Source: Tomitella biformata AHU 1821 (GTDB taxonomy: Bacteria; Actinomycetota; Actinomycetes; Mycobacteriales; Mycobacteriaceae). Taken from it: a stretch of 64,000 nt of DNA. Shown in pieces: positions 25,656 through 43,502 of the stretch. The notes beneath the pieces were generated by a model. The model ran no database searches and was not told where the DNA came from. It was given only the letters and a program-made list of their open reading frames with translations. The position numbers and the translations under genes were made by a program. Position 1 is the first letter of the stretch; each line of letters opens with the position of its first letter. The stretch is from NCBI RefSeq assembly GCF_000524475.1, contig NZ_BAVQ01000022.1:1-64000 (forward strand). Direction: 5' to 3'.

Positions 25656-25688
25656 CCCTACACCCATTTCGCTGACCCAGAGGACCAC

Positions 25689-26477: not shown

Positions 26478-26499
26478 CCTTCTCAGTACAAGCTAGAGG

Positions 26500-26538: not shown

Positions 26539-26562
26539 TTCTATCCACAGACAGGACCTTCC

Positions 26563-27027
26563 ATGGTGCCTCAGCCCGACCACGTCCTCATCACCAACCT
26601 CGTCTACCGCTACGCGGAGTTGGTTGACAGCGCCGACTTCGACGCCCTGGGCGAGATGTTCTCCGACGCCGTGCTCTACGCCGGTGGGGAGCCCCTGCGC
26701 GGGGCCGCGGCGATCCGGCAGAACTTCGTCGACTGGGTGCGCGTGTACCCAGACAACGGCACGCCACACACGCGCCACCTCACGAGCAACCTGATTATCG
26801 AGGTCGCAGAGCCGGAAGATGGCGGGGCCGCGCAGACTGCGGCGGCCCGCTCCTATGTCACCGTGCTGCAATACGGGCCGGGCAACACGCTGACGCCGAT
26901 CTTCTTCGTCCGCTATTTCGACGAGTTCCACCGCGTGGACGGGGCCTGGCGGTTCGCGTCGCGCCGCTACATCGAGCCTGCCTCCGGGCCGGCCGCGGAC
27001 CATCTGCTCAAGGAATTGGGCGACTAA
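26563..27027 (+). CDS. SnoaL/NTF2-like protein
   Basis: A 154-residue SnoaL_4-type protein: DHVLITNLVYRYAELVDSADFDALGEMFSDAVLYAGGEPLRGAAAIRQNF at the N-terminus, TPHTRHLTSNLIIEV in the middle and FFVRYFDEFHRVDGAWRFASRRYIEP at the C-terminus. Related proteins include dehydratases and ring hydroxylase small subunits, but no specific activity can be read here. It starts just behind a strong terminator, so its expression may need read-through or a promoter within the hairpin region. It ends before a second hairpin and converges with the MarR gene. Confidence 0.82.
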   Translation: MVPQPDHVLITNLVYRYAELVDSADFDALGEMFSDAVLYAGGEPLRGAAAIRQNFVDWVRVYPDNGTPHTRHLTSNLIIEVAEPEDGGAAQTAAARSYVTVLQYGPGNTLTPIFFVRYFDEFHRVDGAWRFASRRYIEPASGPAADHLLKELGD

Positions 27028-27045
27028 CGGCACCCGCCCCTAGCC

Positions 27046-27107
27046 TTGCGTCCCGTGTTTGACCGTGCGCACGTTGCAAAGTGAGCAGGGCCAAACACCG
27101 GACGCAA
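27046..27107. terminator. Inverted repeat between convergent SnoaL-like and MarR genes
   Basis: TTGCGTCCCGTGTTTG (27046-27061) pairs with 27092-27107 over 16 bp with one mismatch, around a 30-base loop. It lies in the 98-bp gap between two convergent genes. Loop length and lack of a T-run make it weaker than the hairpin at 26500, but position favours a bidirectional terminator. Confidence 0.55.
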
Positions 27108-27125
27108 AGCGGGCACGCGGGGGGG

Positions 27126-27608
27126 TTAGACGGCGGGCTTGTGCGCCGCGACGTCCCTAGCCTTGGACAGCTCCGCCGGCTCAGCGCTCTCGAACTTGCC
27201 GATCATCCGCAGCAGCAGCTTTCGCAGCTCCGCCGAATCCGCCACCGCGTCCGACAGTGCATCGGACTCCCGCACGTCCGCGACCACCCGCGCGTAGACC
27301 TGCCGACCTGCCTCCGTGATCGAGACCAACTGCCGCCGCTCGTCCGAGGGATCCGTCGCGCGACTGACCAGATCCTTGCGCTCGAGCCGCTCGATGGTGC
27401 GGCTGATCGTCTGATCAGTGACCCGGCAGCTGCGAGCCAGCTTGCGCTGGGGTTGGGCGCCGTCGATCAGGCACTCCTCCAGGATGGTGTAGCCGGCGTG
27501 GGTGACGCCGTGCTCGCGGAGCAGCAGCTCCCAGGTGTGCTCGAGCATGCGGGAGGCGGTCACCAGCAAACGTGCTGTCGACCAGTCCTCGATCTCCTGA
27601 CTCACCAT
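27126..27608 (-). CDS. MarR-family transcriptional regulator
   Basis: A 160-residue winged-helix protein: YTILEECLIDGAQPQRKLARSCRVTDQTISRTIERLERKDLVSRATDPSDERRQLVSITEAGRQVYARV is a full MarR DNA-binding region with the DERRxLVSIT wing, between dimerisation helices. MarR proteins usually answer phenolic or aromatic ligands. The gene lies downstream of an LLM oxidoreductase gene on the same strand (137-bp gap) and beside the steroid ring-cleavage operon. Its target and ligand are not evident. Confidence 0.92.
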   Translation of the reverse strand: MVSQEIEDWSTARLLVTASRMLEHTWELLLREHGVTHAGYTILEECLIDGAQPQRKLARSCRVTDQTISRTIERLERKDLVSRATDPSDERRQLVSITEAGRQVYARVVADVRESDALSDAVADSAELRKLLLRMIGKFESAEPAELSKARDVAAHKPAV

Positions 27609-27745
27609 GACTTCCTATCATGAAAGACCCCCGGAAAACCCATCGACCTGCAGTTATTTACGCAATGCTACGTCGAGAGATAACTTCCGGGAGGCTTTTT
27701 CAGATGAATGCCTAGAGTCTGTCCAAAGCGGTCAAACCGGAGCGG

Positions 27746-28636
27746 TCAAACCAGGGCCCCCATCCACGCCAGCAGATCGTCTAGCCCATCCGCAGTCTCC
27801 AAGTAGGCCGTCGGCCGCAGCATTACGGTGGTGGCCCCCTCGTCGAACCGCCGGGCCACCGACGCCGCGGTGCGCTCGAGGTCCAGCTCCCCCGCCGTCG
27901 TCCGGGCCATCCCCAGGGAGACCTGCACCTCCAGGGAACCGGGATCGCGGCCATGCGCCTCGAAGGCCGCTCGCAGCCGGTCCACCGCGGCGGGGAAGTC
28001 CGGCAGGTCCGCGGGGTTGACGGTCCAGCCGTCGCCGACCCGTGCCAGGCGGTCGAAATTGCTGGCCGACGGCGCGAAGCCGAAAATCACGGGCAGCCGC
28101 TCCTGCACCGGCAGCGGGCGGCTGTAGAAGTCTTCGAAGGCGTAGTCCCGGCCGGTGAACGTCGCGGGCTCTGGCGACCACAGTGCCCGGCAGGCGACGA
28201 CCATCTCCTCGAGGCGGCCGAACCTGCGCTCGAACTCCTGCCCCGCGGCTGCATACTCGTCCTCTTGCCAGCCGACGCCCACGCCCAGGCTAACGCGCCC
28301 GCCGGAGATCACGTCGAGCGTCGCGGCCTGCTTGGCCAGCAGCAGTGCGGGCCGCAGCGGGGCCACCAAGACGGAGATGCCAAGGCGCGCGCGGGTGGTC
28401 ACCGCGGCAACCGCGCCGAGCATCGTCATGGGCTCGAGCCACGGATACTCCAGGTCGAACGGGAAGCCGTTGAACGCGACCCTCCCCTCGTGCGCCCGCC
28501 TCGAGAAGCCGAGGTGGTCACCGGTGCTGATCAGCCCGATCCCCGCGCGGTCCGCCTTTGTGGCAAGGTCGAGCACCGCGGAGAAATTGCCGTCGTACAG
28601 CTTCTCCGCGCCAAGGATGTTGAGGCCGATCTGCAT
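27746..28636 (-). CDS. LLM-class (luciferase-like) F420- or flavin-dependent oxidoreductase
   Basis: A 296-residue (beta/alpha)8 luciferase-like protein. GLISTGDHLGF, LGISVLVAPLRPALLLAKQAATLDVISGGRVSLGVGVGWQEDEY and PLPVQERLPVIFGFAPSASNFDRLARVGDGW are the usual family blocks. In mycolic-acid actinomycetes most members of this size use coenzyme F420. It lies 88 bp downstream of hsaC on the same strand but behind a hairpin (28678-28709), so it is probably a separate transcript or partly read through. The window has two more LLM genes (34679-35545 and 35657-36634). Confidence 0.88.
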   Translation of the reverse strand: MQIGLNILGAEKLYDGNFSAVLDLATKADRAGIGLISTGDHLGFSRRAHEGRVAFNGFPFDLEYPWLEPMTMLGAVAAVTTRARLGISVLVAPLRPALLLAKQAATLDVISGGRVSLGVGVGWQEDEYAAAGQEFERRFGRLEEMVVACRALWSPEPATFTGRDYAFEDFYSRPLPVQERLPVIFGFAPSASNFDRLARVGDGWTVNPADLPDFPAAVDRLRAAFEAHGRDPGSLEVQVSLGMARTTAGELDLERTAASVARRFDEGATTVMLRPTAYLETADGLDDLLAWMGALV

Positions 28637-28677
28637 GCGTTAGCCCTTTCGGTTAGATGACGATTCTTTTAGACGAC

Positions 28678-28709
28678 GATGCCCCGGCACGCTGGCGCGC
28701 CGGGGCATC
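28678..28709 (-). terminator. Hairpin terminator after hsaC
   Basis: GATGCCCCGGC (28678-28688) pairs perfectly with GCCGGGGCATC (28699-28709) around a 10-base loop. It is 15 bp beyond the hsaC stop. On the minus strand the downstream sequence is GTCGTCTAAAAG, with no long T-run, so termination may be partial. Confidence 0.7.
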
Positions 28710-28724
28710 GGGGACATTGCGGTA

Positions 28725-29636
28725 TTACATGTTGAAGGCGGCCAGCGGCTCGGAACCAGACCAGTCGTGGCCCCAGTACTCGTCCGCGGTGATCTCCTCG
28801 GCGGTGTACGTCGCGTCGTCGACCAGCGCGCCCTCGCAGCCGTACTCGAGGTCCCAGCCGCCGGGGGCGCGCACATAGAACGAGACCATCTTGTCGTTCG
28901 TGTGCCGGCCCAGGGTGGATGAGATCGAGTGTCCGCCCTTCTTCACGCGGTCCAGCGCCTGCCCGACGGCATCGAGGGTGGTGACCTCGACCATCAGGTG
29001 CACCAGGCCGGGGAGCTCATTCGGCGGGGCCGGGCAGATCGCCAGGCTGTGGTGGCGCGCGTTGATACCCATGAACCGGACCCGACGCGCCGGCACGGCG
29101 TACTTGCCGCCGAGGCGGATCGCGCCGCGCGAGCGGAAGCCGAGCACCTTCTGGTAGAACTCGACCGTCTCCTCCGAGTTCGGGATCGGCAGCACCACGT
29201 GGCCCATGCCGACACCCTCGGTGACGAACTTATTGCCGTGCGGGGTCACGACGTTGCTGTGGTCCAGGATCGGGCCGAAGAAGATCTCGACGGGGGTGCC
29301 GCCGGGATCGGTGAACGCGATGACCCGCTCGGCACTGCGCTGCGTGGCCTCCTCCTCGGAGAGCTCCGCGACAGTGACGCCGGCGGCCTCGAGGGTCGCC
29401 TTGACGCGGTCGAGGGCGATGCCGTCGGCAACCTCCCAGCCCACGGCCTGCGCCTTGTCGGAGTCGCCGGGCACGATGATCAGACGGGCATTCCGCTCGT
29501 CCATCCGCAGGTAGAGCGCGTCCTCGTTGGGGCCGGAGCCCTCCGCGAAGCCGAGCGCGTCCACGGCCAGCTCACGCCAGCGGGGCAAGTCCGTGGACTG
29601 GACCCGAAGGTAGCCGAGCTGCTTGATGTCGGTCAT
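28725..29636 (-). CDS. hsaC: Extradiol dioxygenase HsaC (3,4-DHSA dioxygenase)
   Basis: A 303-residue type I extradiol dioxygenase cleaving the catechol ring A of the seco-steroid. Two vicinal-oxygen-chelate modules are visible; the iron ligands lie in the C-terminal one: GMGHVV (His), GLVHLM (His) and WDLEYG (Glu). FTDPGGTPVEIFFGP and SISSTLGRHTNDKMVSFYVRAPGGWDLEYGCEG are strong HsaC/BphC blocks. ATG 29636 overlaps the hsaA stop (TGATG), so the two are coupled; a TTG one codon earlier is possible. It is the last gene of the hsaD-kstD-hsaA-hsaC unit. Confidence 0.95.
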   Translation of the reverse strand: MTDIKQLGYLRVQSTDLPRWRELAVDALGFAEGSGPNEDALYLRMDERNARLIIVPGDSDKAQAVGWEVADGIALDRVKATLEAAGVTVAELSEEEATQRSAERVIAFTDPGGTPVEIFFGPILDHSNVVTPHGNKFVTEGVGMGHVVLPIPNSEETVEFYQKVLGFRSRGAIRLGGKYAVPARRVRFMGINARHHSLAICPAPPNELPGLVHLMVEVTTLDAVGQALDRVKKGGHSISSTLGRHTNDKMVSFYVRAPGGWDLEYGCEGALVDDATYTAEEITADEYWGHDWSGSEPLAAFNM

Positions 29637-30814
29637 CAAATCATCCCTCGCATCATGCCCTGGGGGTCGCCGCCGAGCTCGATGAGCGCGGTGGCGTGGT
29701 AGTTCGATCCGGGGACGTGCACGGCGTGCACGGTGCCGGCGTGGGCGTCGCGCCAGAAACGCTGCAGCGACCCGTGCAGGTGCAGGGCACGGCCGCCGGA
29801 GCGGTCCATGATCTGGTCGACCGCGCGGACGACGCGGTGCGCCGCGGCGACCTGGGTGCGGCGACCCTGGGCGCGGGCCTCGAAGGAGACCTCCTTGCCA
29901 GCGTCGACGATGTCGAAGAAGCGGTCCGCGGTCTCGAGCAGCGCGGCGCGGGAGGCCGCGATCTCGGCTGCCGCCTCGCTGATGGCGTACAGCACATACG
30001 GATCCTCGCGGATCGGCTGGCCGGTGACGGCTACGCGGTCCTTCTGGTCCTGCAGGTGGCAGTACATGGCGCCCTCGGCGATGCCGATCACGGCCGAGGT
30101 GATGCCCAGCGGGAAGACGTTCCAGTACGGGAGGTTGTAGAGGGTCTGGTCCAGACCCATCTCCTTGGACTGCTCGCCGGACATGATCTTGGCGGCGTCC
30201 ATCGTGCGGTGCGTGGGGATGAACGCGTCCTTAACGATGACGTCCTTGGAACCGGTGCCGCGCAGGCCGACGACGTTCCAGGAGTCCTGGTCGATCTCGT
30301 AGTCCTCGCGCGGGACCAGCACGTGCATCATCTGCGGCGGCATCAGGCGCTTGCCGTCCTTGTCGCCCACCGCGGCGCCGATGAACAGCCACGTGCAGTG
30401 GTCCGTGCCGGAGGAGAAGGACCAGCGGCCGTTGAGGATGTAGCCGCCGTCGACGGGGGTCGCGATGCCCATGGGCGCGTACGGGGACGCCATCCACGTG
30501 TTGGGGTCGGTGCCCCAGACCTCTTCCTGCACCTTCGGGTCGGCCATCGCCAGCTCCCACGGGTGCACGCCGACGATGCCGCCGACCCAGCCGGTGGCGC
30601 CGTCGAGCGCGGCGGTGCCCATGACGGCCTCCGCGAACTCGCGCGGGTGCGCCTCCGTGCCGCCGTACTTGACTGGCTGCATCATGCGCATGATCCCCGA
30701 GTCGCGCAGGATCCCCGCCGCGCGATCGGTGAGCTGCATGTTCTTCTCGCCCTCGGCGGCGTCGGCGCGAATCTCGTCGCCGCGGGCCAGGATGCTGTCC
30801 AGTTCCTTGCTCAT
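29636..30814 (-). CDS. hsaA: Flavin-dependent 3-HSA monooxygenase, oxygenase component HsaA
   Basis: A 392-residue acyl-CoA-dehydrogenase-fold hydroxylase that converts 3-HSA to the catechol substrate of HsaC, using reduced FMN from a reductase (HsaB). Seen: MQPVKYGGTEAHPREFAEAVMGTAALDGATGWVGGIVGVHPWELAM, GRWSFSSGTDHCTWLFIGA, GLRGTGSKDVIVKDAFIP and DRSGGRALHLHGSLQRFWRDAHAGTVHAV. ATG 30814 is preceded by GAGGGA. No HsaB-type flavin reductase is next to it, unlike the mycobacterial hsa operon. The 95-bp gap upstream to kstD holds GACCATCCGAATTGGTC (30862-30878), an imperfect inverted repeat that might belong to an internal promoter. Confidence 0.94.
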   Translation of the reverse strand: MSKELDSILARGDEIRADAAEGEKNMQLTDRAAGILRDSGIMRMMQPVKYGGTEAHPREFAEAVMGTAALDGATGWVGGIVGVHPWELAMADPKVQEEVWGTDPNTWMASPYAPMGIATPVDGGYILNGRWSFSSGTDHCTWLFIGAAVGDKDGKRLMPPQMMHVLVPREDYEIDQDSWNVVGLRGTGSKDVIVKDAFIPTHRTMDAAKIMSGEQSKEMGLDQTLYNLPYWNVFPLGITSAVIGIAEGAMYCHLQDQKDRVAVTGQPIREDPYVLYAISEAAAEIAASRAALLETADRFFDIVDAGKEVSFEARAQGRRTQVAAAHRVVRAVDQIMDRSGGRALHLHGSLQRFWRDAHAGTVHAVHVPGSNYHATALIELGGDPQGMMRGMI

Positions 30815-30909
30815 ATTCCCTCGCTTGGTTGTGGAAGTTTGTGTGTTAGTGCAAAAGTTGACGACCATCCGAATTGGTCGCTAGTCCAGGGGATGGCTTG
30901 CCGTCCAGG

Positions 30910-32595
30910 CTAGGACTTGGCGGCATCCAGCGCCGCGACATAGCCGAACACCATCGACGGTCCGATGGTGGCGCCCGCGCCGGCGTACTCGTTGCCCATC
31001 ACCGAGGACGAGGTGTTGCCGGTCGCGTACAGTCCAGCGATCTCGGAGCCGTCCTCACGGAGCACCCGCGAGCGCGCGTCCACGACGAGGCCACCCTTGG
31101 TGCCCAGGTCGCCGACCTCGACGCGGACCGCGTAGAACGGGCCCTTGTCGATGACGTCGATGTTGGGGTTCTGCAGCGTCGGGTCGCCGTAGTAGCGGTC
31201 GTAGGCGCTGTCGCCGCGGCCGAAGTCGAGGTCCTTGCCCGTGCGGGCGAAGCCGTTGAAGCGCTCGATGGTGGACGCCAACTGCGCCGCGTCGATGCCG
31301 ACCTTCTCGGCCAGCTCGGCGATGGTGTTCGCCTTGGTGACGATGCCCTGGTCGTAGAAGCCGGCCGGGAAGTCCAGGCCCGGCATGACCTGCGCGAACG
31401 GGTAGCGCGAGCGCGCCTTGGTGTCCATCACGAAGTACGCGGGGAGCACGCCGGCCTCGAGCTGGTCGTGCACGAAGTTCGTGTACGGCGAGGACTCGTT
31501 GGTGAAGCGCTTGCCGTCGGTGCCGACGATGACGGACGGCGGGATGCAGCGCTCGGACACGAGCGGGATGACCGCGCCCATCGGGTGCATGACGGACGGC
31601 ATCCACCAGGCGTCGTCCATGAGGTCGGTTGCGGCGCCGAGCTTCTGGCCGGCGAGGATGCCGTCGCCCGTGTTCTCCCTGGCGCCGGCGCTGATTGCGG
31701 GCTGGCCGCCCTCGGGCAGCGTCTGCTGGCGCATCTCCAGGTTGTGGTCGTAGCCGCCGGTCGCCAGCAGCACGCCCTTGCGCGCGCCGACCCGGACCGT
31801 CTTGCCCTCACGCTCGGCGACGGCGCCGATGACGCGGCCGTGGGTGTCGACGATCAGCTCGGTCATGGAGGTCTGCAGCCACAGCGGAACGCCGCCCTCC
31901 TTCATTGCCAGGCGCAGGCGCGCGACGAGCGAGCGGCCGCCCGTCGCCATGTGGCGGCGCACCACGGTGTTCGACGCGACGCGCCAGGCGGCGACCAGGG
32001 AGGCGCGACGGCCGGCCCAGGTGCGCTTGACCATCGCGAGGTCGTGGTAATCCTTGCTGGTGACCCACAGGCCCAGCGGGCCCTTCATGCTGTTGGGACG
32101 CTGGAACTGCTCGTCTTCCTTCAGCTTCTTGGTGTTGAACGGCGGGCACTCGACGGTGCGCCCGTCCGCGCGGCCGCCCGGCAGCTCGGGGTGGTAGTCG
32201 GAGTAGCCCTTGACGTAGTAGAACTGCACGTTCTTGCTAGAACGCTGGAGCATCTCCATCATCGGCACGCCGTTGTCGATCAGCGCCTCGACACGGTCCT
32301 TCGGCACGCGGTCGCCGATCAGCGCGTCCAGGTAACCGAGGACGGACTCGCGGGAGTCCGTGACGCCCTTCGCGGCCAGCGTCGGGTTGTTCGGCACCCA
32401 GATGCCGCCGCCGGAGATCGCGGTGGAGCCGCCGAAGGTCTTGCCCTTCTCCAGCACCAGCGTGCTCAGGCCCTTCTCATTCGCGGCCAGCGCGGCGGTC
32501 ATGCCGCCACCGCCGGAGCCGACCACCAGGAAGTCGACCTCAGCATCCCAGGCGGGCTGGGTTCCGGAGTTGTCTTGTGCTGCGGGGGAATTCAT
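30910..32595 (-). CDS. kstD: 3-ketosteroid delta1-dehydrogenase KstD
   Basis: A 561-residue FAD enzyme that desaturates C1-C2 of 3-ketosteroids, which with KshA activity breaks ring B. The flavin Rossmann motif GSGGGGM is at residues 26-32, followed by LVLEKGKTFGGSTAISGGGIWVPNNP; the C-terminus has GLYATGNTSSSVMGNEYAGAGATIGPSMVFGY, typical of KstD. Length matches the family. The start codon overlaps the hsaD stop (TAATG). Its position inside the hsa operon between hsaD and hsaA differs from the mycobacterial arrangement, where kstD lies apart from hsaA/D/C/B. Confidence 0.95.
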   Translation of the reverse strand: MNSPAAQDNSGTQPAWDAEVDFLVVGSGGGGMTAALAANEKGLSTLVLEKGKTFGGSTAISGGGIWVPNNPTLAAKGVTDSRESVLGYLDALIGDRVPKDRVEALIDNGVPMMEMLQRSSKNVQFYYVKGYSDYHPELPGGRADGRTVECPPFNTKKLKEDEQFQRPNSMKGPLGLWVTSKDYHDLAMVKRTWAGRRASLVAAWRVASNTVVRRHMATGGRSLVARLRLAMKEGGVPLWLQTSMTELIVDTHGRVIGAVAEREGKTVRVGARKGVLLATGGYDHNLEMRQQTLPEGGQPAISAGARENTGDGILAGQKLGAATDLMDDAWWMPSVMHPMGAVIPLVSERCIPPSVIVGTDGKRFTNESSPYTNFVHDQLEAGVLPAYFVMDTKARSRYPFAQVMPGLDFPAGFYDQGIVTKANTIAELAEKVGIDAAQLASTIERFNGFARTGKDLDFGRGDSAYDRYYGDPTLQNPNIDVIDKGPFYAVRVEVGDLGTKGGLVVDARSRVLREDGSEIAGLYATGNTSSSVMGNEYAGAGATIGPSMVFGYVAALDAAKS

Positions 32596-33467
32596 TACTT
32601 GGCCTTCGAATCGTCGCGGGTGAGGAAGGCGAGCACAGCGGATAGCCAGGCCTCGCGGGCCTCGATCATCGTCCAGTGCCCGCAGTTGGGGAACACGTGC
32701 AGTTCTGCGTTGGGGACATCGCGCATCGGGAGCATCGCCATGTCGACCGGGCTGACGCGGTCGTCGCGGCCCCAGGTCAGCAGGGTGGGCGCCTTGATGC
32801 GACCCAGTTTTGCCCAGTAGGGCGTGGTCTCGGCGGCCTGGTTCGCGGCGGCCATGGCGGCCATCGCCTGGCTGCTGTACATGCGGCGGGCGATCTCGAG
32901 GGTGGTCGGCTCGGTGGCAAGCGCCCAGCGCTCCTCGAGCAGCTCCTCGGTGACGATGGCGGGGTCGTAGACCATCGAGTTCAGCCAGCGGACCAGGCCC
33001 TCCCGCGTCGGGTTGTCCGTGAAGTCCATCAGCAGCTTGATGCCCTCGCTGGGGCCGTGGCCGAAGATGTTCTTGCCCATGCCGCCGATGGTGACGAGGC
33101 GGTTGACCCGCTGGGGTGCGTTGATCGCGATGTTGGCGCCGACGATGCCGCCCATCGAGTTGCCGATGATGTCAACGGAGTCCAGGCCCAGGCCATCAAG
33201 GAAGGCGATGACCGAGCCGCCAGCCATCATCATCGGGTGGCCGTCCCCCGCGTAGCTGACGCCGAAGCCCGGGAACTCCAGGATGAGGCAGCGGAAGTGC
33301 TCGCTCAACTCGCCAACGACGCCGCGGTAGTTCCGCCAGCCGGTGACGCCGGGGCCGGAGCCGTGCAGCAGGAGCAGGGGCGGGCCCTCGCCGACCTCGT
33401 GGTAAACCAGGACGCCTTGCTCGGTCTGCAACTCCTTGCGGGAGTCTTCGTAGCTAACTTGCGCCAT
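32595..33467 (-). CDS. hsaD: C-C bond hydrolase HsaD (4,9-DSHA hydrolase)
   Basis: A 290-residue alpha/beta-hydrolase of the meta-cleavage-product hydrolase group (BphD/HsaD), cleaving the HsaC product. The oxyanion region LLLHGSGPGVTGWRNY, nucleophile elbow IGNSMGGIVGAN, acid in TLLTWGRDDRVSPVDMAMLP and catalytic His in FPNCGHWTMIE are all present. ATG 33467 is preceded by GGAG. It heads the hsaD-kstD-hsaA-hsaC operon; 120 bp upstream on the same strand ends an IclR regulator gene. Confidence 0.94.
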   Translation of the reverse strand: MAQVSYEDSRKELQTEQGVLVYHEVGEGPPLLLLHGSGPGVTGWRNYRGVVGELSEHFRCLILEFPGFGVSYAGDGHPMMMAGGSVIAFLDGLGLDSVDIIGNSMGGIVGANIAINAPQRVNRLVTIGGMGKNIFGHGPSEGIKLLMDFTDNPTREGLVRWLNSMVYDPAIVTEELLEERWALATEPTTLEIARRMYSSQAMAAMAAANQAAETTPYWAKLGRIKAPTLLTWGRDDRVSPVDMAMLPMRDVPNAELHVFPNCGHWTMIEAREAWLSAVLAFLTRDDSKAK

Positions 33468-33587
33468 TCATCTGCTCCAGTTCTCGACCCACAACCACAT
33501 GGATTGCTATTCATCGTGAACCTAATGACGCGGATGGCGCGTGCGTGCGGCGATCCCGATCAGCGAGACATTCCGGCGGGTCAGACT

Positions 33588-34457
33588 CTAGACTGCGGCG
33601 TCGCGGCGAAAGCCCGAGGCAGTGCGCGCGCCGGAGCCGCCCGTGCGGGCGCCGGGGGCCGGGAACAGCTCCTGGGAAACGCGGCGTGCCGCGCCGAGGA
33701 CGAGGGGTGCGACACGGTCCAGCGGGGTGCTGTTGGACTCCGGGCACAGACAGATGGCGGCGACGGGGCCTTCCGGCCCGACGATCGCGGCGGCGGCGGA
33801 GGTGAAGCCCATGGAGCGCTCCCCGGTCCGGTCGATGGAGAGGCCGTGGCGCTGGCGGATCCGGTTGAGCTCCTGGTGCAGCTCGGGGAGGGACCAGCCG
33901 TTCTTGCTGCGCTGGTTCTTCAGACGGTCGGTGACGAGGTCATCGACCGTCTCGGGGGTAAGTCCCGCGAGCATCGCCCGGCCGCCGGTGTTCCAGTACG
34001 CGCCGGAGTGGCCGCCCACGCGGGAGGCGAGGCGGCTCGCGAACCGGCCGCCGATCTTGTCGAGGAAAATCTCGTCGACACCGTCGAGCACCGACAAATG
34101 CACCACCATGCCGGTGCGCATGTGCAGCTCGTGCAGGTAGGAGTTCGACACCTGACGCAGCTCGTTGTGGCCATTGCCCTGGCCGCCGAGGCCGAGCGCG
34201 CGGCGGCCGAGGCCGTAGCCCAGCGCGCCGTGGTCGAGCCAGTCCAGCTTGACCAGCTGGTCGAGGATTCGGTGGGCAGTGGAACGGGGCAGCCGCGTCC
34301 GATTCGCGACCTCTTCCAGGTTGAGCTTGCTGGAACGACGCTCGAACGCGTCGAGGATCAACGTCATGCGCTCCACCATCGAGGGCGGGAGATCACGCTG
34401 CGCCCCATCTGCGACTGCCGCAGAGATGGTGGACTGTGTGTTCTCAAGCGATGACAT
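33588..34457 (-). CDS. IclR-family transcriptional regulator
   Basis: A 289-residue regulator: N-terminal winged helix (MVERMTLILDAFERRSSKLNLEEVANRTRLPRSTAHRILDQLVKLDWLDHG) and the C-terminal effector-binding domain (VHLSVLDGVDEIFLDKIGG, ending in a SIDRTGERSMGFTSAAAAIVGPEGPVAAI block). ATG 34457 has GGAGG seven bases away and is preferred over the longer frame from 34511. IclR proteins control many aromatic and steroid ring-degradation operons. It is immediately upstream of hsaD on the same strand, so it is a candidate controller of the hsaD-kstD-hsaA-hsaC unit; ligand unknown. Confidence 0.92.
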   Translation of the reverse strand: MSSLENTQSTISAAVADGAQRDLPPSMVERMTLILDAFERRSSKLNLEEVANRTRLPRSTAHRILDQLVKLDWLDHGALGYGLGRRALGLGGQGNGHNELRQVSNSYLHELHMRTGMVVHLSVLDGVDEIFLDKIGGRFASRLASRVGGHSGAYWNTGGRAMLAGLTPETVDDLVTDRLKNQRSKNGWSLPELHQELNRIRQRHGLSIDRTGERSMGFTSAAAAIVGPEGPVAAICLCPESNSTPLDRVAPLVLGAARRVSQELFPAPGARTGGSGARTASGFRRDAAV

Positions 34458-34499
34458 GACGCCTCCACTGCTCACCTGGTCCACCGAACGGCCACCCAG

Positions 34500-34513
34500 A
34501 ATTGAAATCAATT
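34500..34513. promoter_or_regulatory. AT-rich inverted repeat upstream of the IclR gene
   Basis: AATTGA (34500-34505) and TCAATT (34508-34513) form a perfect inverted repeat around AA, 43 bases before the iclR-type start codon, in the 221-bp spacer to the divergent LLM gene. Position and shape fit an autoregulatory operator, but no consensus is known for this protein. Confidence 0.4.
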
Positions 34514-35656: not shown

Positions 35657-36634
35657 TCAGCCGAGCGCGGCCAGCATCCGCAGGGTGCGCTCACCAGCCG
35701 GGTCCGCATCAGTGCACGACGGGACGATGACGATGTCGTCCACCCCCGCCGTGCGGTATGCGTCGATGCGCGCCTGCGCCGCGGCCGTGTCGGGGCCGAT
35801 GATGCCCACCGCCTCGACGAGCTCGGTGGGGATCCGTGCAAGCAGCTCGCGAGGATGCGGGCGGGTGCGGGCGAACGCCACGACGTCGCCGAATCCTGCG
35901 CGCTCGAACATCTCCGAGTAGCCGGGCGCCGCGAGGTAGCCGAGGACTCCCCGGCGGATCTGCTCCACCGCGCCCGACCCGGCACCGATCGCCGCGGTGG
36001 CCCACAGCGCCACCCGCGGACGTGGTCGGCCCAGTTCCGCCGCCGCCCGCTCGAGATCCCCGATCAGCTCCCCCGCGGTCTCCGCAGTCACCAGGTTGAG
36101 CACTAGGCGGTCGCCGTGGCGGGCCGCGGCCCGGATCGCGGCCGGGCCGAAGGCTGCGATCGTCAGTCCTGAGCGGGGCGCGGGCAGCCGCAGCCGGTAT
36201 CCGGTGCTGCCGACGACCTCGCCGGGGCTCTCGACCTTCTCGCCGTTGAGCAGCGGCCGCAGGGCCGCGGCGGACTCTGCTAGCGCTCGCGCCGACCGAG
36301 CGCGCGAGCGTCCATGCCACTCCTCCACGACCACCGCGCTGGACGTGCCCAGCGCGATGTCGACCCGGCGCCTGGTCAACGCGGCCACGGACGCGGCGCC
36401 CATCGCGATCATCGCCGGATCGCGGACCGTCACGGCGAAGGGGCCGAGAGTCAGCGGAATGTCGACGGTATGGCGCGCGATCTCCATCGCCAGCGCGAAG
36501 GCGTCATAGGTTGCCATCTCGCCAATCCACAGCGACTTGTAGCCAAGCTCGTCGGCGATCGCGGCGGTGGCCAGCGCCTCGTCGGCCGGCCGGTCCTGCC
36601 ATAGCCCCAGCGAGACCTCCAATCCGTTGCTCAT
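35657..36634 (-). CDS. LLM-class F420-dependent oxidoreductase
   Basis: A 325-residue luciferase-like protein: SLWIGEMATYDAFALAMEIARHTVDIPLTLGPFAVTVRDPAMIAMGAASVAALTRRRVDIALGTSS and LTIAAFGPAAIRAAARHGDRLVLNLV. Its start overlaps the stop of the carotenoid-oxygenase gene by four bases (ATGA), so it is the last gene of a five-gene operon. The second half (AQARIDAYRTAGVDDIVIVPSCTD) is characteristic of F420-type LLM enzymes. It could reduce or oxidise an intermediate of that operon's pathway; substrate unknown. Confidence 0.87.
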   Translation of the reverse strand: MSNGLEVSLGLWQDRPADEALATAAIADELGYKSLWIGEMATYDAFALAMEIARHTVDIPLTLGPFAVTVRDPAMIAMGAASVAALTRRRVDIALGTSSAVVVEEWHGRSRARSARALAESAAALRPLLNGEKVESPGEVVGSTGYRLRLPAPRSGLTIAAFGPAAIRAAARHGDRLVLNLVTAETAGELIGDLERAAAELGRPRPRVALWATAAIGAGSGAVEQIRRGVLGYLAAPGYSEMFERAGFGDVVAFARTRPHPRELLARIPTELVEAVGIIGPDTAAAQARIDAYRTAGVDDIVIVPSCTDADPAGERTLRMLAALG

Positions 36635-38151
36635 GCGAGCCCGACCGCGCTCGCCATGTGGTCGACGGTGTCCCAGCCCGGGATCTCCGAGCCGGCAGCC
36701 CAGGTTGAGTGCGTGCCGCTGGAGACCCGCTCGGGCAGCCGGATCCGCGTGATGGGGCCGTCCTCGACGCGCTGCGCGTCGAAGATCAGGCACTCGGAGA
36801 GGTCGCGGTTCATGTCGACCGTGATCGTGATCAGGTAGCCGTCGTCCTCACTGGTGGAGCCGACCCGCGGGGCCATCGCCGTCTCGCTGCCGTACACGCC
36901 CTCGCCGAATTGATAGGCCGTCTCATCACCGGTGAGGGTGTCGTGCTTGACGAGCCCGTTGAACAGGAACCAGTCCGGAACCGCTTGCGCCGCATAGGTG
37001 TAGCGGTGCTTGACACCGCCGTGGTGGGCGTTGATCATGCCGAACTCGGTGACCCGGTCCGAGAGGTGCCCCTCCTTGACCTCGCCCGTCCTCAGGTTCA
37101 ACCGCCAGCGGTGCAGGCGGGTGCCCATGCGCTCCTGGGACAGAAACCGGAAGGCCCGCTGGTACGCCGATCCGACGCCATCGTCGGCAGGCTCGGGGTG
37201 CTCTTCATAGAAGCCGTCGAGGACGATCTCCTCGCCCTCCTCGTAGGCATTGACCCAGTGCAGCACGAAGGTGGGATCGGCCTCGAACCAGCGGACGTCC
37301 TCGGTGCGGCCGCGGCGGGGCACGACGCCGATACGCGTGGGAATGTCGGGGTAGAACCGGGTCGCGTGCTTCCCCTTCTCCAACGCCTCCGGGATCCAGA
37401 ACAGGGGACAGTCCGTGAGGATCGCGTAGTTCTCGGTGAAGGCCATGTCGTGCGGCAGTCGCGGGCCGGGAAGCGGGATATCGATGTAGTGCACCAACTG
37501 CTCCTGCGCGTCTACCACCCCGTAGTGCATGTAGGGCGCGTCCTTGCCGTAGTTGAAGAACAACATCTCACCGGTGCGGTGGTCGACCTTCGGGTGCGCG
37601 GATACCCCGACGTCCGAGGGGAAATCGCCGTTCCACGTCGACTTCCCGAGCGTCTCGAGGGTCACCGGGTTCAGCCGGTACAGGTCCCCGCACTGGTAGA
37701 AGCTGGTCAGCGCGACGCCCGCGTGCAGACTCACGTCTGTGCTGGACGAGTCCTTCAGCAGCCCGCGGGCGCCCCAGCCGTCCTGGCGCAGCGAGGCCTT
37801 CGGGTTCTCGGCGATGCCCGGCCACAGCGGACCGCCCGCCGTCGTCTCCGCCTTGAGCCCGTCCGTCTGCACAAAGCGGTTGCGGTAGAACGCCTTTCCA
37901 TCGCGGAATCCGACGACGTGCACCATGCCGTCACCGTCGAACGGGTGGTAGACGCCAGCGAGCGCCGGGTGCACCGGGTTCTCCGTGTTCCGCAGGTAGA
38001 CCCCGTCCAGGTCGGCGGGGATCTCGCCCTCCACGTGCAGGTCCGTCGCTTCCCACTCGGTGGTCTGCGGGCGCCACGGTCCGGTGCGGTACGGGTGGTC
38101 GTCATCTGCGGGGAGAGTGGACAGCATGCGGCCCAAGACCTCGATATCCAT
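36631..38151 (-). CDS. Carotenoid cleavage oxygenase (RPE65/lignostilbene dioxygenase) family protein
   Basis: A 506-residue seven-bladed beta-propeller non-heme iron oxygenase. N-terminal EGEIPADLDGVYLRNTENPVHP... and FDGDGMVHVVGFRDGKAFYRNRFVQT are diagnostic. The four iron-binding histidines sit in SAHPKVD, LPHDMAF, LHWVNAYEE and SGTHSTW. Family members cleave C=C bonds in carotenoids, apocarotenoids, stilbenes or phenylpropenes. It lies 7 bp after the upstream thiolase gene and overlaps the downstream LLM gene by four bases. Association with an acyl-CoA ligase and two thiolases suggests breakdown of an unsaturated chain to acyl-CoA units (inference). Confidence 0.92.
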   Translation of the reverse strand: MDIEVLGRMLSTLPADDDHPYRTGPWRPQTTEWEATDLHVEGEIPADLDGVYLRNTENPVHPALAGVYHPFDGDGMVHVVGFRDGKAFYRNRFVQTDGLKAETTAGGPLWPGIAENPKASLRQDGWGARGLLKDSSSTDVSLHAGVALTSFYQCGDLYRLNPVTLETLGKSTWNGDFPSDVGVSAHPKVDHRTGEMLFFNYGKDAPYMHYGVVDAQEQLVHYIDIPLPGPRLPHDMAFTENYAILTDCPLFWIPEALEKGKHATRFYPDIPTRIGVVPRRGRTEDVRWFEADPTFVLHWVNAYEEGEEIVLDGFYEEHPEPADDGVGSAYQRAFRFLSQERMGTRLHRWRLNLRTGEVKEGHLSDRVTEFGMINAHHGGVKHRYTYAAQAVPDWFLFNGLVKHDTLTGDETAYQFGEGVYGSETAMAPRVGSTSEDDGYLITITVDMNRDLSECLIFDAQRVEDGPITRIRLPERVSSGTHSTWAAGSEIPGWDTVDHMASAVGLA

Positions 38152-38158
38152 TGTTGCC

Positions 38159-39379
38159 CTACCCTTTCGAAGTCGCAGTGAGGTTTTCCAAGAGCAGGGC
38201 CGAACCCAGTCCCGCGGCCCCGCTCACCGCGGCGACGCCGTAGCGCCCGCCAGAGCGGTTCAATTGCTCGACGGCCTGGCCGATGAGGATCGCGCCGGTC
38301 GCCCCGAACGCGTGGCCCATCGCGATGGTGCCGCCGTTGACGTTGAAGCGGCCCTCGCCAAAGCCCAACTCGCGCTGAATCTTCAGACAGAGGGCGGAGA
38401 ACGCCTCCGCGAACTCGACCACGTCGAGGTCCGCCGGGGTGAGCCCGGCGCGGGAGAGCGCGCGCTCGATGGCAATCTGCCCGGCGGCGAGCATCCGGAC
38501 CGGGTCGGAACCCGCGCTCGCGGCGCCCACGACCCGGGCCAGGGGGGTGAGCCCCGCGCGGGCCGCGGCCTCCGCGGTGCCGACGATCACCAGGCCCGCG
38601 CCATCCGCGAGCGAGGGCGACGTGCCACGGGTGTGCAGGTGCTGGATCTCGGCTAATCCGGGGAGGTGGCGCAGCGCAAGCGCGTCCTGGCCGCCCGCGC
38701 CGAGCTCCGCGAAAGCCGCGGGGAGCGCGGCCATCTGGTCGGCAGTCACGGCGCGCACGTGCTCGTCATGTGCCAGGACGATCGTGCCATCCGGGCCACG
38801 GACCGGCAGCACGGTCGAATCGTAGAACCCGTCCGCCCACGCCGCGGCCGCCCGTGCCTGGCTGCGCAGGCCGTAGGCGTCGAGCTCGGCGCGGGTGAGG
38901 CCGAGCTCGGTGGCGGCGATGTCGGCCGCGATGCCCATGTGGACACTGCCAATCGCCTCCACCACAGCCGGGTCCGTCCACAGCGGGCCTTGGTCGGCGA
39001 ACATCGGGACCGCGGAGACGGAGTCGACGCCGCCGGCGACCACGAGATCTGCCTGCCCAGACTTGACCAGAGCCGATGCCGTGGCGACGGCATCGATCCC
39101 GGAGGCGCAGAAACGGTTCACGCTCTGGCCGGGGACGCGCTGCGGCCACCCTGCGGTGAGCACGGCGGTGCGAGCGAGGTTCCCGCCCTGCGCTCCCACC
39201 TGGGTGGCGCTGCCGAGCACGACGTCGTCGACGGCCTCCGGGTCCAGGCCCAGCCGGTGAACAAGCCCGCCGAGCAGCTTCTCCACCAGGGACAGCGGGC
39301 TGACTCCGGCCAGCCCGCCGCCGGCATGGGCCTTCCCGCGGGGGGTGCGCAGGGAGCCGAGCACGAAAGCCTCGGTCAT
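38159..39379 (-). CDS. Thiolase-family protein with altered catalytic motifs
   Basis: A 406-residue thiolase. The nucleophile Cys is kept (SVNRFCASGIDA, C91) and so is the His block (NVNGGTIAMGHAFGATGA). However the usual NEAF motif is AEAF (EFAEAFSAL), and the second catalytic Cys of the C-terminal CxGxGxG loop is Ser (GVAAVSGAAGLGSA, S386). Thus the residue that normally protonates or deprotonates the acetyl group is missing, and the enzyme may use a different chemistry or be a thioester-binding partner. ATG 39379 overlaps the preceding stop by four bases (ATGA). The upstream frame beyond 39379 is shadow of the adjacent gene. Confidence 0.9.
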   Translation of the reverse strand: MTEAFVLGSLRTPRGKAHAGGGLAGVSPLSLVEKLLGGLVHRLGLDPEAVDDVVLGSATQVGAQGGNLARTAVLTAGWPQRVPGQSVNRFCASGIDAVATASALVKSGQADLVVAGGVDSVSAVPMFADQGPLWTDPAVVEAIGSVHMGIAADIAATELGLTRAELDAYGLRSQARAAAAWADGFYDSTVLPVRGPDGTIVLAHDEHVRAVTADQMAALPAAFAELGAGGQDALALRHLPGLAEIQHLHTRGTSPSLADGAGLVIVGTAEAAARAGLTPLARVVGAASAGSDPVRMLAAGQIAIERALSRAGLTPADLDVVEFAEAFSALCLKIQRELGFGEGRFNVNGGTIAMGHAFGATGAILIGQAVEQLNRSGGRYGVAAVSGAAGLGSALLLENLTATSKG

Positions 39380-40614
39380 TTCACGCCCCTGGTGACGACG
39401 GTGGCGACGGCGGTGGTGAACGAGCCGCCGACGTTGACGGTCAGCGCCGTGCGGGCGCCGTCGATCTGCTGGTCCCCGGCCCGGCCGGTCACCTGCTTGG
39501 CGGCGTCGAGCACCATTCGCACGCCCGTCGCACCGACGGGGTGACCGTTGGCCAGCAGCCCGCCGCCGGGGTTCACCGGCAGCTTCCCGTCCCGCGCGAT
39601 CAGCCCGTCCATAACGGCCTGTCCGCCCTGACCCGGCGCTGCCAGGCCCATGTGCTCGAGCGTGACGAGGCCGTTGATGGTGAAGCAGTCGTGGATCTCC
39701 GCAACGTCGAGGTCGTCGACACCGGCCAGCCCGGCGCGGCGGTACGCGTCCTGCACCGCCGCGGCCAGGTGCGGGAACATGTAGTCCGCGCCGTCGCCCT
39801 GCGCGAGCTTGTCTGCCAACAGCAGGGTGGCAGTGCGGTGTCCGAAGCCCGCGATGACGGCCTCGGCGCTCAGCTCGGTCCCCGTGCGCTCGGCCCACGC
39901 CCGCGTGAATCGCTCGCTGGCGAGCACGACGCCGGCCGCGCCGTCGGTGATGCGCCCGCAGTCGGTCTTGCGCAACAGACCCTCCACCGCGGGGTTCACG
40001 TCGTCGTCCTCCTCGAACGAGCCTGCGGGGAAGTCCCAATCACGCGTCTGGGCAAGGGGATTTGTCTTGCCGTTGGCGAAGGCGATCTCCGCGAACCGAC
40101 CGAGGTGCGCGTGGTCGAGGCCGTAGCGCTGGCCGTAGTCCGCCGCGATCTCCGCGAACAGCGCCGGCCAGGCGAAGGTGGCGTCGAGGGCCTCCCGGCC
40201 CGCCCAGGCCGCGGAGCCGAGGTTATCGGCCGCCGTTGTGGCAGAGACATTGCGCATCAGCTCGACGCCCAGGACCAGGGCCACGTCGTAGCGGCCGGAC
40301 TCGATGTCGGCGCATGCGGCGAGGATGGCGGTGGAGCCGGAGGCGCAGGCCGCCTCGTGTCGGGTGCTGGGCACCCCATCCAGGCCGGGCTCCGCGGCGA
40401 TAACCATGCCGCCGAGTTGCGCCTGGCCAGCGAAGAGCTCCCCGGCCAGGTTGCCGACGTGGATCACGCCGATCTCGGCCGCCTCGACCCGCGCGTCGGC
40501 CAGTGTGGCGGGGACGGACTCAGCCAACATGTCGAACAGACCATGCCCGTCCTTCGCCCAATTGCGGGCGAAGTCGGTCTGCATACCGCCCAGCACATAG
40601 ACGGGGCTTGTCAT
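39376..40614 (-). CDS. SCP2-type thiolase (lipid-transfer-protein family)
   Basis: A 412-residue thiolase-like protein of the SCP-x/Ltp type. The nucleophile is in RHEAACASGSTAI (C90); HDCF at residues 308-311, characteristic of SCP2-thiolases, and NGHPVGATG at about 356-364 complete the site, while the C-terminal loop is VGGSFTTA without Cys, as usual for this group. The C-terminal SCP2 lipid-transfer domain is absent. Substrates in the family are branched or steroid 3-ketoacyl-CoAs. It overlaps its neighbours by four bases on each side (ATGA), so it is co-translated with the acyl-CoA ligase upstream and the second thiolase downstream. No DUF35 partner is visible. Confidence 0.92.
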   Translation of the reverse strand: MTSPVYVLGGMQTDFARNWAKDGHGLFDMLAESVPATLADARVEAAEIGVIHVGNLAGELFAGQAQLGGMVIAAEPGLDGVPSTRHEAACASGSTAILAACADIESGRYDVALVLGVELMRNVSATTAADNLGSAAWAGREALDATFAWPALFAEIAADYGQRYGLDHAHLGRFAEIAFANGKTNPLAQTRDWDFPAGSFEEDDDVNPAVEGLLRKTDCGRITDGAAGVVLASERFTRAWAERTGTELSAEAVIAGFGHRTATLLLADKLAQGDGADYMFPHLAAAVQDAYRRAGLAGVDDLDVAEIHDCFTINGLVTLEHMGLAAPGQGGQAVMDGLIARDGKLPVNPGGGLLANGHPVGATGVRMVLDAAKQVTGRAGDQQIDGARTALTVNVGGSFTTAVATVVTRGVK

Positions 40615-42317
40615 TTGGCCTCCATCGTCAGGGTCCGCAGGTCGGATTTGGTGATCTTGCCGACGGGGTTGCGCGGCAACTCAGAGACCACAAAGACGGA
40701 TTCCGGCAGCTTGAACGCGGCGATCTTCTGCCCGCGCAGGTGGGCGACGATGTCCACCAGGCTGGGCTCGGCGTCCCCCGAAGGCACCACCACCGCGCAC
40801 ACCCGCTCCCCCATCGCCAGGTCCGGCACCCCGATGACGGCGGCCTCGAGCACGCCAGGGCAGCCGAGGATCAGGGACTCGATCTCCGCGGGCGAGATGT
40901 TCATGCCGCCGCGCACGATGAGGTCTTTCGCGCGATCGACATAGCGGAGATAACGCAGGTCGCCGGGCTCGGCTTCGATGTATTCGAAGAGGTCGCCGGT
41001 GCAGAAGTAGCCGTCTTTGTCGAACGGGTCGCCACTTGCGGTGCCGGCGAGGTAGCCCGCGAACACGGATGGCCCATCAAGGCGCAGCTCACCGGTGTGT
41101 CCCGCGACGGTGATCTCCTCCTCGGTGGCAAGGTCCACCAACTTGGTGCGCATGCCCCGGGACGCCTCGTTGTCCCAGGTGTGCGAGGGAGAGCCGAAAC
41201 GAGGGAACAGCACCGCACGTAGGACCGGGTCCGGGATCGTGTCGGGATCGCCGACCAGCGTGGTGCCCTCGTTGGAGCCGAAGCAGTTGATGATGTCGAT
41301 GCCGAAGCGGTCCTTATACTCCGAGATCATCTGGTGCGAGAGCGGCGCGGAGCCGGAGCCGATCACGCGGAGGCTGTCGAGCACGCCCGCCGCGGCCGCG
41401 TCGCTGGCCAGCGCGCGCACGAGCACCGCGGGCGGCGCGACGGTGTACGTGACCTGGTGGTGGACAACCTGTTTGAAGAACGTTGCGGCGTCGAACGGGT
41501 GGTGCTGCACCAGCGTCGCGCCGGTCAGCAGCCACGGCACCAACATCCCCGCGATCCCCGCCATGTTGACCATCGGGAACGGGTTGAGCAGCACGTCATC
41601 CCCTGTGAGAGCCGCGCCGGAGACGCTCCCAATGCCGGAGATATACCACTCGTTGGCACCGCGCGGGATCCCCTTGGGCGTGGACTCCGTGCCCGAGGTC
41701 CAGCAGATCGTCAGGGCGACGTTCGGATCTGGTGTCAGGGAAGCCCGGCGCTCCGCCAGCGCAGTCCCGTCGAATGGCTCTGCCAGTCGCGCGTCGAGCC
41801 CCACCACACCGGCGGGCAGGTTATCGCCAAAGGCGAGGACACCGCGTAGCGACGGGAGGTCCCCCGCCGCCGTCGCTGCGGAGTCCACCAGCCGGTGTCC
41901 GGCCATCCGCGCACAGGTGACAAACGTCCGGAAGTTCGCCAGGGCGCCCAACTGGGCAAGCTCATACTCCCGGTACTGCACGGGCAGCGGCGAAATGACC
42001 GCGCCGATCCGCGTGATCGCCAGATACATCGCGGTCAGCTCCACCGAGTTCGGCAGTTGCACCCCGACGACGTCGCCGCGCTCCACTCCTTGCTCCAGCA
42101 GGACCTCGGCGAGCTGGTCCACGAACTCGTTGAGATCTGCCCACGTCAGCTCCCGCCGAGGACCGTCGGTCAGGTCTGCGCGGTTCAGCGGGTCCACGAC
42201 TGCGAGCGCGCCGGGCCGCTCGCCCACATGCCGGTCCAGGAGTTCATCCCAGGTGTCGTGGCCCCACCAGCCAGCGGCTGTGTACTCATCGACCCTGTCC
42301 TGGGGGTGCAATCTCAT
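40611..42317 (-). CDS. Acyl-CoA ligase (AMP-forming)
   Basis: A 568-residue adenylate-forming ligase: ICWTSGTESTPKGIPRGANEW (P-loop), NCFGSNEGT, FCTGDLFEYIE, RAKDLIVRGGMNISPAEIESL and the C-terminal PRNPVGKITKSDL lysine region. It begins with MRLHPQDRVDEYTAAGWWG; ATG 42317 has GGAGG nine bases away, while an ATG 27 bases upstream (MESARRHTE) is a less likely start. It is the first gene of the operon ending at 35657 and would activate the pathway's carboxylic-acid substrate. It is divergent from the tandem HxlR regulator. It is only distantly similar to the other four ligases here. Confidence 0.92.
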   Translation of the reverse strand: MRLHPQDRVDEYTAAGWWGHDTWDELLDRHVGERPGALAVVDPLNRADLTDGPRRELTWADLNEFVDQLAEVLLEQGVERGDVVGVQLPNSVELTAMYLAITRIGAVISPLPVQYREYELAQLGALANFRTFVTCARMAGHRLVDSAATAAGDLPSLRGVLAFGDNLPAGVVGLDARLAEPFDGTALAERRASLTPDPNVALTICWTSGTESTPKGIPRGANEWYISGIGSVSGAALTGDDVLLNPFPMVNMAGIAGMLVPWLLTGATLVQHHPFDAATFFKQVVHHQVTYTVAPPAVLVRALASDAAAAGVLDSLRVIGSGSAPLSHQMISEYKDRFGIDIINCFGSNEGTTLVGDPDTIPDPVLRAVLFPRFGSPSHTWDNEASRGMRTKLVDLATEEEITVAGHTGELRLDGPSVFAGYLAGTASGDPFDKDGYFCTGDLFEYIEAEPGDLRYLRYVDRAKDLIVRGGMNISPAEIESLILGCPGVLEAAVIGVPDLAMGERVCAVVVPSGDAEPSLVDIVAHLRGQKIAAFKLPESVFVVSELPRNPVGKITKSDLRTLTMEAK

Positions 42318-42593
42318 TTCGGTGTGCCTCCGTGCGCTCTCCATGCTGCGGATCATGAGCGCAAACCTATCGATTGATTTCTATTACTGCAATAGGCAAA
42401 GTAACTAAGGTGGAGTTCAGATCTATCCATACTGCGTCTGCACATACGCAACATGATGGTGAAATCCGGAATTTATCCCAATCGCACGACATAACTTCAT
42501 AATGGATAGTGGGATATATGAGGTCGGGGGGGCTACGATTCGAGGGGCGCCGAGGACCGTGCCGCCGCCACCGCGCGGACGTGGTTTGAGAGG
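42318..42593. promoter_or_regulatory. Divergent control region of the ligase operon and tandem HxlR gene
   Basis: This 276-bp spacer is strikingly AT-rich. It holds CTATCCAT at 42423-42430 and its exact inverse ATGGATAG at 42502-42509, and TATCCCA at 42474-42480 with its inverse TGGGATA at 42510-42516. These share a GGATA-type core that would suit a protein with two DNA-binding domains, as the divergent HxlR protein has. CTATTACTGCAATAG (42381-42395) is another inverted repeat close to the ligase start. No binding consensus is known. Confidence 0.55.
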
Positions 42594-43502
42594 ATGAGGC
42601 TTGTGCCCACTCCGACGCCCACCTCATCCGCGCTGGGGCACGCACTCCTCATCGTCGGCGACCGCTGGAATCTGCAGATCATCCGCGGTGTGTTCGCCGG
42701 CGCGCACCGGTTCCAGCACCTGCGAGACAGCCTCCACATCTCTGACACAGTCCTCGCGCACAGGCTGGGGCACCTGGTGTCCGACGGGATCCTCGTCGCT
42801 GTCCAATACTCCACCGCCCCGCCCCGAAGCGAGTACCGCCTGACCGCCGCGGGTAAGGGCCTCTGGCCCGTGTACGTGGCGCTGTGGAACTGGGACCGCT
42901 CCTGGTCCCCCCGCGCGCACCAGGAGCTAGGCGCCCGTCTGCGCCATTCCCCGTGCGACAACACCATCGTGCCGATATTCGGCTGCGGAGCGTGCGGGGC
43001 GATTGGGCTGACCGCGCGGGACGTGCGCACAGAGGTCGACGCCCGCCTGCTGCTCGACGTCGCAGACCGTCGCGGGCGCCGGACCACCGCACCGCCGGAC
43101 GTCAACTCCACCGGAGTGCTCGCCGATCGCTGGTCGACCTTCCTGCTGGCCGCCGCCCTCAACGGCACCCGCCGGTTCACCGACTTCCAGGAGCAACTGG
43201 GCGCAATCTCGCCCGCCACATTGACCCAGCGGCTGTCCCGTTTCGTCGACGGCGCCATGTTGGACCGGGTGCCGGTCGCGGACGGAGCCCGCCGCCAGGA
43301 GTACCGACTCACCTTGAAGGGGATCGACTTCTTCCCCGTGTTCGCCACCCTGAACACCTGGTCGCAGGAGCATCTCGCGCTAGACGGCCAGTCCGGCCTA
43401 TCCCTGATCCACCGCGCCTGCGGCGCCGAGTTGCGGCCGCGATACACCTGCAACGCCTGCAACGTCGAGCTCACGCGGCGGGAGATCCAGTTCGAGCGCT
43501 AA
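42594..43502 (+). CDS. Tandem HxlR-type winged-helix regulator with duplicated Cys motifs
   Basis: A 302-residue protein made of two similar halves. Each half has an HxlR winged helix (GDRWNLQIIRGVFAGAHRFQHLRDSLHISDTVLAHRLGHLVSDGIL and ADRWSTFLLAAALNGTRRFTDFQEQLGAISPATLTQRLSRFVDGAML) followed by a wing (SEYRLTAAGKGLWPVYVALW / QEYRLTLKGIDFFPVFATLN) and a cysteine motif (HSPCDN...FGCGACGAIGLTARDV / HRACGA...YTCNACNVELTRREI). The repeated CxxC elements look like zinc knuckles. Single-domain HxlR proteins act as dimers, so this could be a covalent pseudo-dimer. GTG 42603 is an alternative start. It is divergent from the ligase operon and probably controls it. Confidence 0.88.
   Translation: MRLVPTPTPTSSALGHALLIVGDRWNLQIIRGVFAGAHRFQHLRDSLHISDTVLAHRLGHLVSDGILVAVQYSTAPPRSEYRLTAAGKGLWPVYVALWNWDRSWSPRAHQELGARLRHSPCDNTIVPIFGCGACGAIGLTARDVRTEVDARLLLDVADRRGRRTTAPPDVNSTGVLADRWSTFLLAAALNGTRRFTDFQEQLGAISPATLTQRLSRFVDGAMLDRVPVADGARRQEYRLTLKGIDFFPVFATLNTWSQEHLALDGQSGLSLIHRACGAELRPRYTCNACNVELTRREIQFER

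Follow-up and report, generated by a model that had tools for sequence, protein, structure and literature searches.

A probable catabolic operon built around a carotenoid-cleavage-family oxygenase in Tomitella biformata

Oxygenases of the carotenoid-cleavage family are usually discussed for carotenoids and stilbenes. Why, then, should one of them be encoded between a thiolase and an F420-type oxidoreductase, in a unit that begins with an acyl-CoA ligase? The question is raised by a set of genes from Tomitella biformata AHU 1821, found in a stretch of 64,000 nucleotides that was analysed as a whole and that we call the window. The set is a probable catabolic operon of known enzyme families built around the carotenoid-cleavage-family oxygenase (CCO), in a combination of which we found no description in open-licence papers. 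It ties the CCO family to CoA-dependent catabolism, and we are quite confident that it encodes a CCO-dependent CoA catabolic pathway.

A first-pass annotation of this DNA had recognised no described pathway with such a combination, and the open-licence literature agrees. No description of a module of CCO and CoA enzymes was found there, nor any paper that joins a CCO with a nitronate monooxygenase, or with a thiolase and a CoA ligase. A search for CCO together with acetyl-CoA acetyltransferase returned only an unrelated mycobacterial genome paper. The pairing of thiolase and CCO is not entirely new, since it matches the uncharacterised M. tuberculosis neighbours Rv0913c and Rv0914c by annotation and synteny.

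The operon and its divergent regulator

The features of the locus are as follows.

42317..40611, minus strand: acyl-CoA ligase of the AMP-binding family, which opens the unit; ATG with GGAGG upstream
40614..39376, minus strand: SCP2-type thiolase (NF004936)
39379..38159, minus strand: divergent thiolase, ThiB (PF00108/PF02803)
38151..36631, minus strand: carotenoid-cleavage-family oxygenase, CCO (PF03055)
about 36634..35657, minus strand: LLM-class F420-type oxidoreductase (TIGR03841)
42357..42593, no strand: intergenic region, probable promoter/operator; weak inverted repeats
42594..43502, plus strand: tandem-HxlR regulator, divergently transcribed (PF01638, two stretches)

The open reading frames of the minus-strand set and their overlaps were checked in the window. 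Overlaps of 4 bp (ATGA) join the ligase to the SCP2-type thiolase (40611-40614), this thiolase to ThiB (39376-39379) and the CCO to the LLM gene (36631-36634), the start of the last overlapping the CCO stop codon. The junction between ThiB and the CCO is a 7-bp gap (38152-38158). With these junctions verified and with linkage far above chance (see below), the earlier claim that ligase, two thiolases, CCO and LLM oxidoreductase form one unit stands. All five listed genes are present; what the list omitted is the divergent tandem-HxlR regulator, which is part of the unit.

This regulator consists of a duplicated whole HxlR domain, the halves of which align with a score of 151 against a shuffled maximum of 47. 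Each half is followed by a Cys-x9-Cys-x2-Cys pattern (Cys 121/131/134 and 276/286/289), and in sequence the protein resembles a fused dimer with zinc sites. A homologue is found on a Cupriavidus plasmid, with 31% identity over 300 aa. For the promoter or operator upstream of the ligase, an inverted-repeat scan of the intergenic region gave nothing beyond weak inverted repeats, with an imperfect palindrome at 42363-42380.

Directly downstream of the operon lies a steroid-like degradation cluster (24244-34511), made up of KshA, an IclR regulator and genes resembling HsaC, HsaA, KstD and HsaD. A 736-aa open reading frame at 21134-23344, on the minus strand, comprises two tandem acyl-CoA dehydrogenase copies.

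Conservation of the thiolase-oxygenase pair

How constant is this grouping in other genomes? CCO homologues occur in 55 of the 201 genomes of the window's GTDB family. The SCP2-type thiolase gave 47 matches in 46 of the same 201 genomes, and all 46 are among the 55 that carry a CCO. The search for orthologous operons without the oxygenase, proposed along with the original annotation as a refuting test, was run on these matches and did not refute the reading: a CCO lies within 6 kb of 46 of the 47, and within 200 bp of 36. In a sample of 396 genomes from the phylum, the CCO is present in 20 and the thiolase in 15, with both in 14 and close together in 13. Outside the GTDB family, six of seven genomes with the thiolase also have a CCO, and the lone exception, G534, is an assembly of 500 contigs with 84% completeness. 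The co-occurrence has a Fisher p of about 1e-36 in the family and 3e-20 in the phylum sample, shared ancestry being ignored in both. The grouping of the five genes is not due to chance, and the CCO and its partner thiolase are linked tightly enough to be regarded as a single functional unit.

The wider neighbourhood is less constant. We compared 88 loci whose CCO has 60% identity or more, taking 5 kb on both sides. Since the GC3-filtered set of open reading frames misses some genes, neighbours were counted by tblastn; the loci include duplicates, where the same genome is in two collections (e.g. L041/L073 and L056/L143). The SCP2-type thiolase was present in 77 loci and HxlR in 63, while ThiB, the ligase and the LLM gene were present in 33, 26 and 4, respectively. 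The ligase is thus missing nearby from 62 of the 88 and ThiB from 55, which makes the five-gene form one version of a smaller core. This core is the SCP2-type thiolase, the CCO and the HxlR regulator, and the window carries an extended form of it. The order of the module genes is shuffled among genera; this speaks for selection acting on the set rather than for the mere inheritance of an order. The four other sampled genomes of the window's own genus lack the thiolase-CCO pair, so that within the genus the module is an accessory unit. In mycobacterial loci the SCP2-type thiolase adjoins the CCO on the same strand, and the neighbours seen there included neither a ligase nor a ThiB or LLM gene.

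Related sets are also found on plasmids of Cupriavidus and Sphingopyxis. Their CCOs have 43-52% identity to ours and lie beside ligases (41-42%, over the full length) and a thiolase (43-44%), and an SCP2-type thiolase adjoins the CCO in C. necator C39 (51% identity) and N-1. The Cupriavidus CCOs further neighbour aldehyde dehydrogenase, Bug-type and porin genes, which suggests that an acid is taken up and that an aldehyde is formed. On some Cupriavidus plasmids (L157, L188, L153) two CCO paralogues lie within a few kb of each other beside a ligase.

In several of these plasmid sets the place of the LLM gene is occupied by a "nitronate monooxygenase" (NMO) that is FabK-like by sequence; this replacement was noted at L036, L038, L040, L154, L156 and other loci. 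Among 126 CCO loci the LLM gene occurs in 5 and the NMO gene in 16, never together, and both are confined to the 32 loci with a ligase. This mutual exclusion suggests that the two enzymes perform one equivalent redox step, although its p of about 0.02, obtained without tree correction from loci that are not independent, is weak alone.

A link to carotenoid synthesis by way of crtI was tried and set aside: nearly all the genomes carry the gene, so that it has little to tell, apart from two (G085 and G098) that lack it and yet have a CCO.

Enzyme families and catalytic residues

The CCO is a full-length match to PF03055 (RPE65; residues 27-485, E 4.6e-126, 422 bits versus 27). The four iron-ligand histidines (H186, H234, H298 and H481) are kept in 107-108 of 108 sequences, and the second-shell acidic residues E369 and E423 in all 108. 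In LSD4 the second shell comprises Glu-135, 353 and 418, and the Glu-135 position has been described as acidic across the family (PMC8191317). The aligned residue of the CCO is Gln in 102 of 108 sequences (Gln153 in the window) and Met in 6, a call that depends on the alignment because of a one-residue insertion nearby. By this alignment the CCO departs from the fully acidic second shell, yet its fold and iron ligands place it inside the RPE65 superfamily. The AlphaFold model (pLDDT 87) is a seven-bladed propeller with Foldseek TM scores of about 0.8-0.9 to LSD, CCD1, ACO and VP14, the best matches being LsdA, the P. brassicacearum LSD and LSD4; for LsdA and LSD the TM scores are 0.82-0.88.

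Which member of the superfamily is it, then? The CCO misses the equivalog for lignostilbene dioxygenase (NF053778, 239 versus 800 bits) and that for 8'-apocarotenoid 13,14-dioxygenase (NF052295, 235 versus 675 bits). A profile of the CCO clade scores plant CCD1 highest among solved structures, at 358 bits against 261 for LSD. Lignostilbene dioxygenases bind the 4-hydroxyl of their substrate through a Tyr-101/Lys-134 pair (PMC8191317). This pair is absent from the CCO, where the aligned positions are Ile113 (Leu/Ile) and Tyr152 (Tyr/Trp) across 108 sequences. Judged by these comparisons, the subfamily fits no curated functional model. A second, distant CCO (33% identity) is present in the same genome at L072 (G000:C77), without such a neighbourhood.

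The family assignments of the remaining enzymes are firm as well. The ligase matches PF00501 (E 2.5e-57) and PF13193 in a profile search. The SCP2-type thiolase passes NF004936 (582.6 bits, cut-off 375), and its Cys90 nucleophile and its HDCF and GHP motifs are intact and invariant across 96 sequences. The LLM oxidoreductase passes TIGR03841 (F420_Rv3093c) with 378 bits against a curated cut-off of 213.65.

ThiB has both thiolase domains (Thiolase_N and Thiolase_C, E 9e-44 and 4e-32), and its nearest solved relatives are 3svk and M. tuberculosis FadA Rv0859. The nucleophile Cys91 and His356 are kept in 44 of 44 sequences. The acid/base Cys of the CxG motif is Ser in the window, Ser or Pro in 41 of the 44 and a gap in 2; it is present only in L069, which is a different cluster. 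The sequences form two subclasses, one with AEAF/GHA/Ser and the other with NEAF/GHP/Pro.

Proposed pathway, alternatives and known systems

What might such a set of enzymes degrade? Stilbene or phenylpropenoid acids were among the substrates first proposed, and would make the CCO a cleaver of the lignostilbene-dioxygenase type, with the CoA enzymes processing the released aromatic acid. The best fold matches are indeed of this type. Lignin-dimer pathways pair such enzymes with a CoA ligase or lyase (PMC12997858), and the neighbours of the proteobacterial versions, namely porin, Bug and aldehyde dehydrogenase genes, are of the sort usual in the catabolism of aromatics. However, the loss of the Tyr/Lys pair, the failure of the curated models and the Gln in place of an acidic residue count against this substrate, as does the preference of the clade profile for CCD1 over LSD; we consider it unlikely and not supported. 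A steroid linkage has to be considered because of the neighbouring genes. The unit might belong with the steroid-like genes directly downstream and act on side chains or ring fragments of steroids or terpenoids, and thiolases, ligases and FabK-like or LLM redox enzymes are known from steroid side-chain and C/D-ring degradation (FadD3, FadA6 and IpdC). Against this, HsaA, KstD, HsaD and IclR are not constant partners of the CCO module in other genomes, and we know of no steroid degradation step that requires a CCO, which leaves this origin improbable.

Two further readings carry still less weight. Turnover of the host's own carotenoids would suit the CCO family, and crtI-type genes occur in 188 of the 201 family genomes. 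But the CCO is found in only 55 of these, G085 and G098 carry it without crtI, and the porin and periplasmic binding proteins of the proteobacterial versions would be left unexplained; we find this very unlikely. The SCP2-type enzyme has PhlC of diacetylphloroglucinol synthesis among its solved relatives, and could be an acyltransferase of a biosynthetic unit. Its match to PhlC (2e-26) is weaker than that to thiolases (1e-50), all the thiolase motifs (Cys90, HDCF and GHP) are retained and neither PhlA/PhlB-like nor tailoring genes came to light, so that a biosynthetic role is also very unlikely. The explanation that we favour overall, and hold to be somewhat probable, is the CoA-dependent catabolism of an organic acid containing a C=C bond, with oxidative cleavage by the CCO as an obligatory step alongside the SCP2-type thiolase.

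In such a pathway the ligase would activate the substrate acid, or the acid arising after CCO cleavage, as a CoA ester. The CCO, with its iron ligands in place, would cleave a C=C bond by the chemistry of its family, to give two carbonyl groups. A flavin or F420 redox step may adjust a double bond or ketone; the mutual exclusion suggests that the LLM enzyme performs it in this operon and the FabK-like enzyme in other genomes. The SCP2-type thiolase, which has the catalytic residues for it, is predicted to split a 3-oxoacyl-CoA; ThiB may carry out a C-C cleavage of a similar kind, in which the acid/base chemistry is changed, and the tandem-HxlR protein presumably regulates the unit. The beta-oxidation that had been proposed for this operon is borne out in part: thiolases and a ligase are encoded, but acyl-CoA dehydrogenase and enoyl-CoA hydratase genes are absent from the operon and ThiB is without the acid/base Cys, so the classical route is only partly represented.

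SCP2-type thiolases act on alpha-methyl-branched 3-oxoacyl-CoAs, an activity in keeping with an isoprenoid chain. Acids of the isoprenoid or apocarotenoid type, among them abscisic acid, would fit as substrates. We tentatively suggest a small acid of this class taken up from plant matter, and not a 4-hydroxystilbene, while recognizing that other classes together are likelier. More speculatively, and with considerable doubt, the Gln-variant CCO and its dedicated SCP2-type thiolase could represent a pathway widespread in Actinobacteria, mycobacteria included, and in some Proteobacteria. Its substrate would be an acid of apocarotenoid type or a branched isoprenoid one, in which a beta-methyl branch stands in the way of normal beta-oxidation and the CCO would cut through it; the pathway could include the first step of abscisic acid breakdown.

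Abscisic acid offers a useful comparison. Its beta-branch may hinder normal beta-oxidation. In Rhodococcus sp. P1Y it is converted to dehydrovomifoliol with loss of the C1-C2 unit, a step to which no genes have been assigned (PMC7996341, PMC9599779). This loss of C1-C2 at a C=C bond is a cut that a CCO could make directly; if true, the CCO would be a candidate for the enzyme that starts the bacterial breakdown of abscisic acid. Evidence against it is that the strain did not grow on glyoxylate (PMC7996341) and that acetate release is favoured by the authors (PMC9599779).

Among characterised enzymes, the lignostilbene dioxygenases LsdA, LSD4 and NOV1 have the fold (TM 0.81-0.90) and the four His ligands in common with the CCO, and presumably, as members of one family, the C=C cleavage chemistry. 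They differ from it in sequence (about 29% identity), in the Tyr/Lys phenol pair, in Glu-135 and in the equivalog, and their described pathways are without thiolases, whereas the module has two. Plant CCD1 likewise has the four His ligands and about 29% identity, but is not part of a CoA-dependent operon. The solved mycobacterial and trypanosomatid SCP2-type thiolases have the catalytic Cys, HDCF and GHP in common with the enzyme described here, which is a dedicated neighbour of a CCO.

The closest putative counterpart is the Rv0913c-Rv0914c pair of M. tuberculosis, a putative CCO and a thiolase-like neighbour as in the module, matched by annotation and neighbourhood. Rv0914c is annotated as thiolase-like, and the neighbourhood is that of Rv0908-Rv0914c. 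Rv0913c has been listed as a putative CCO (PMC5133782), and both genes as associated with Rv0915c (PMC11754781). M. tuberculosis makes no carotenoids and has nevertheless retained the pair (PMC5133782), for which the module provides a gene-level hypothesis.
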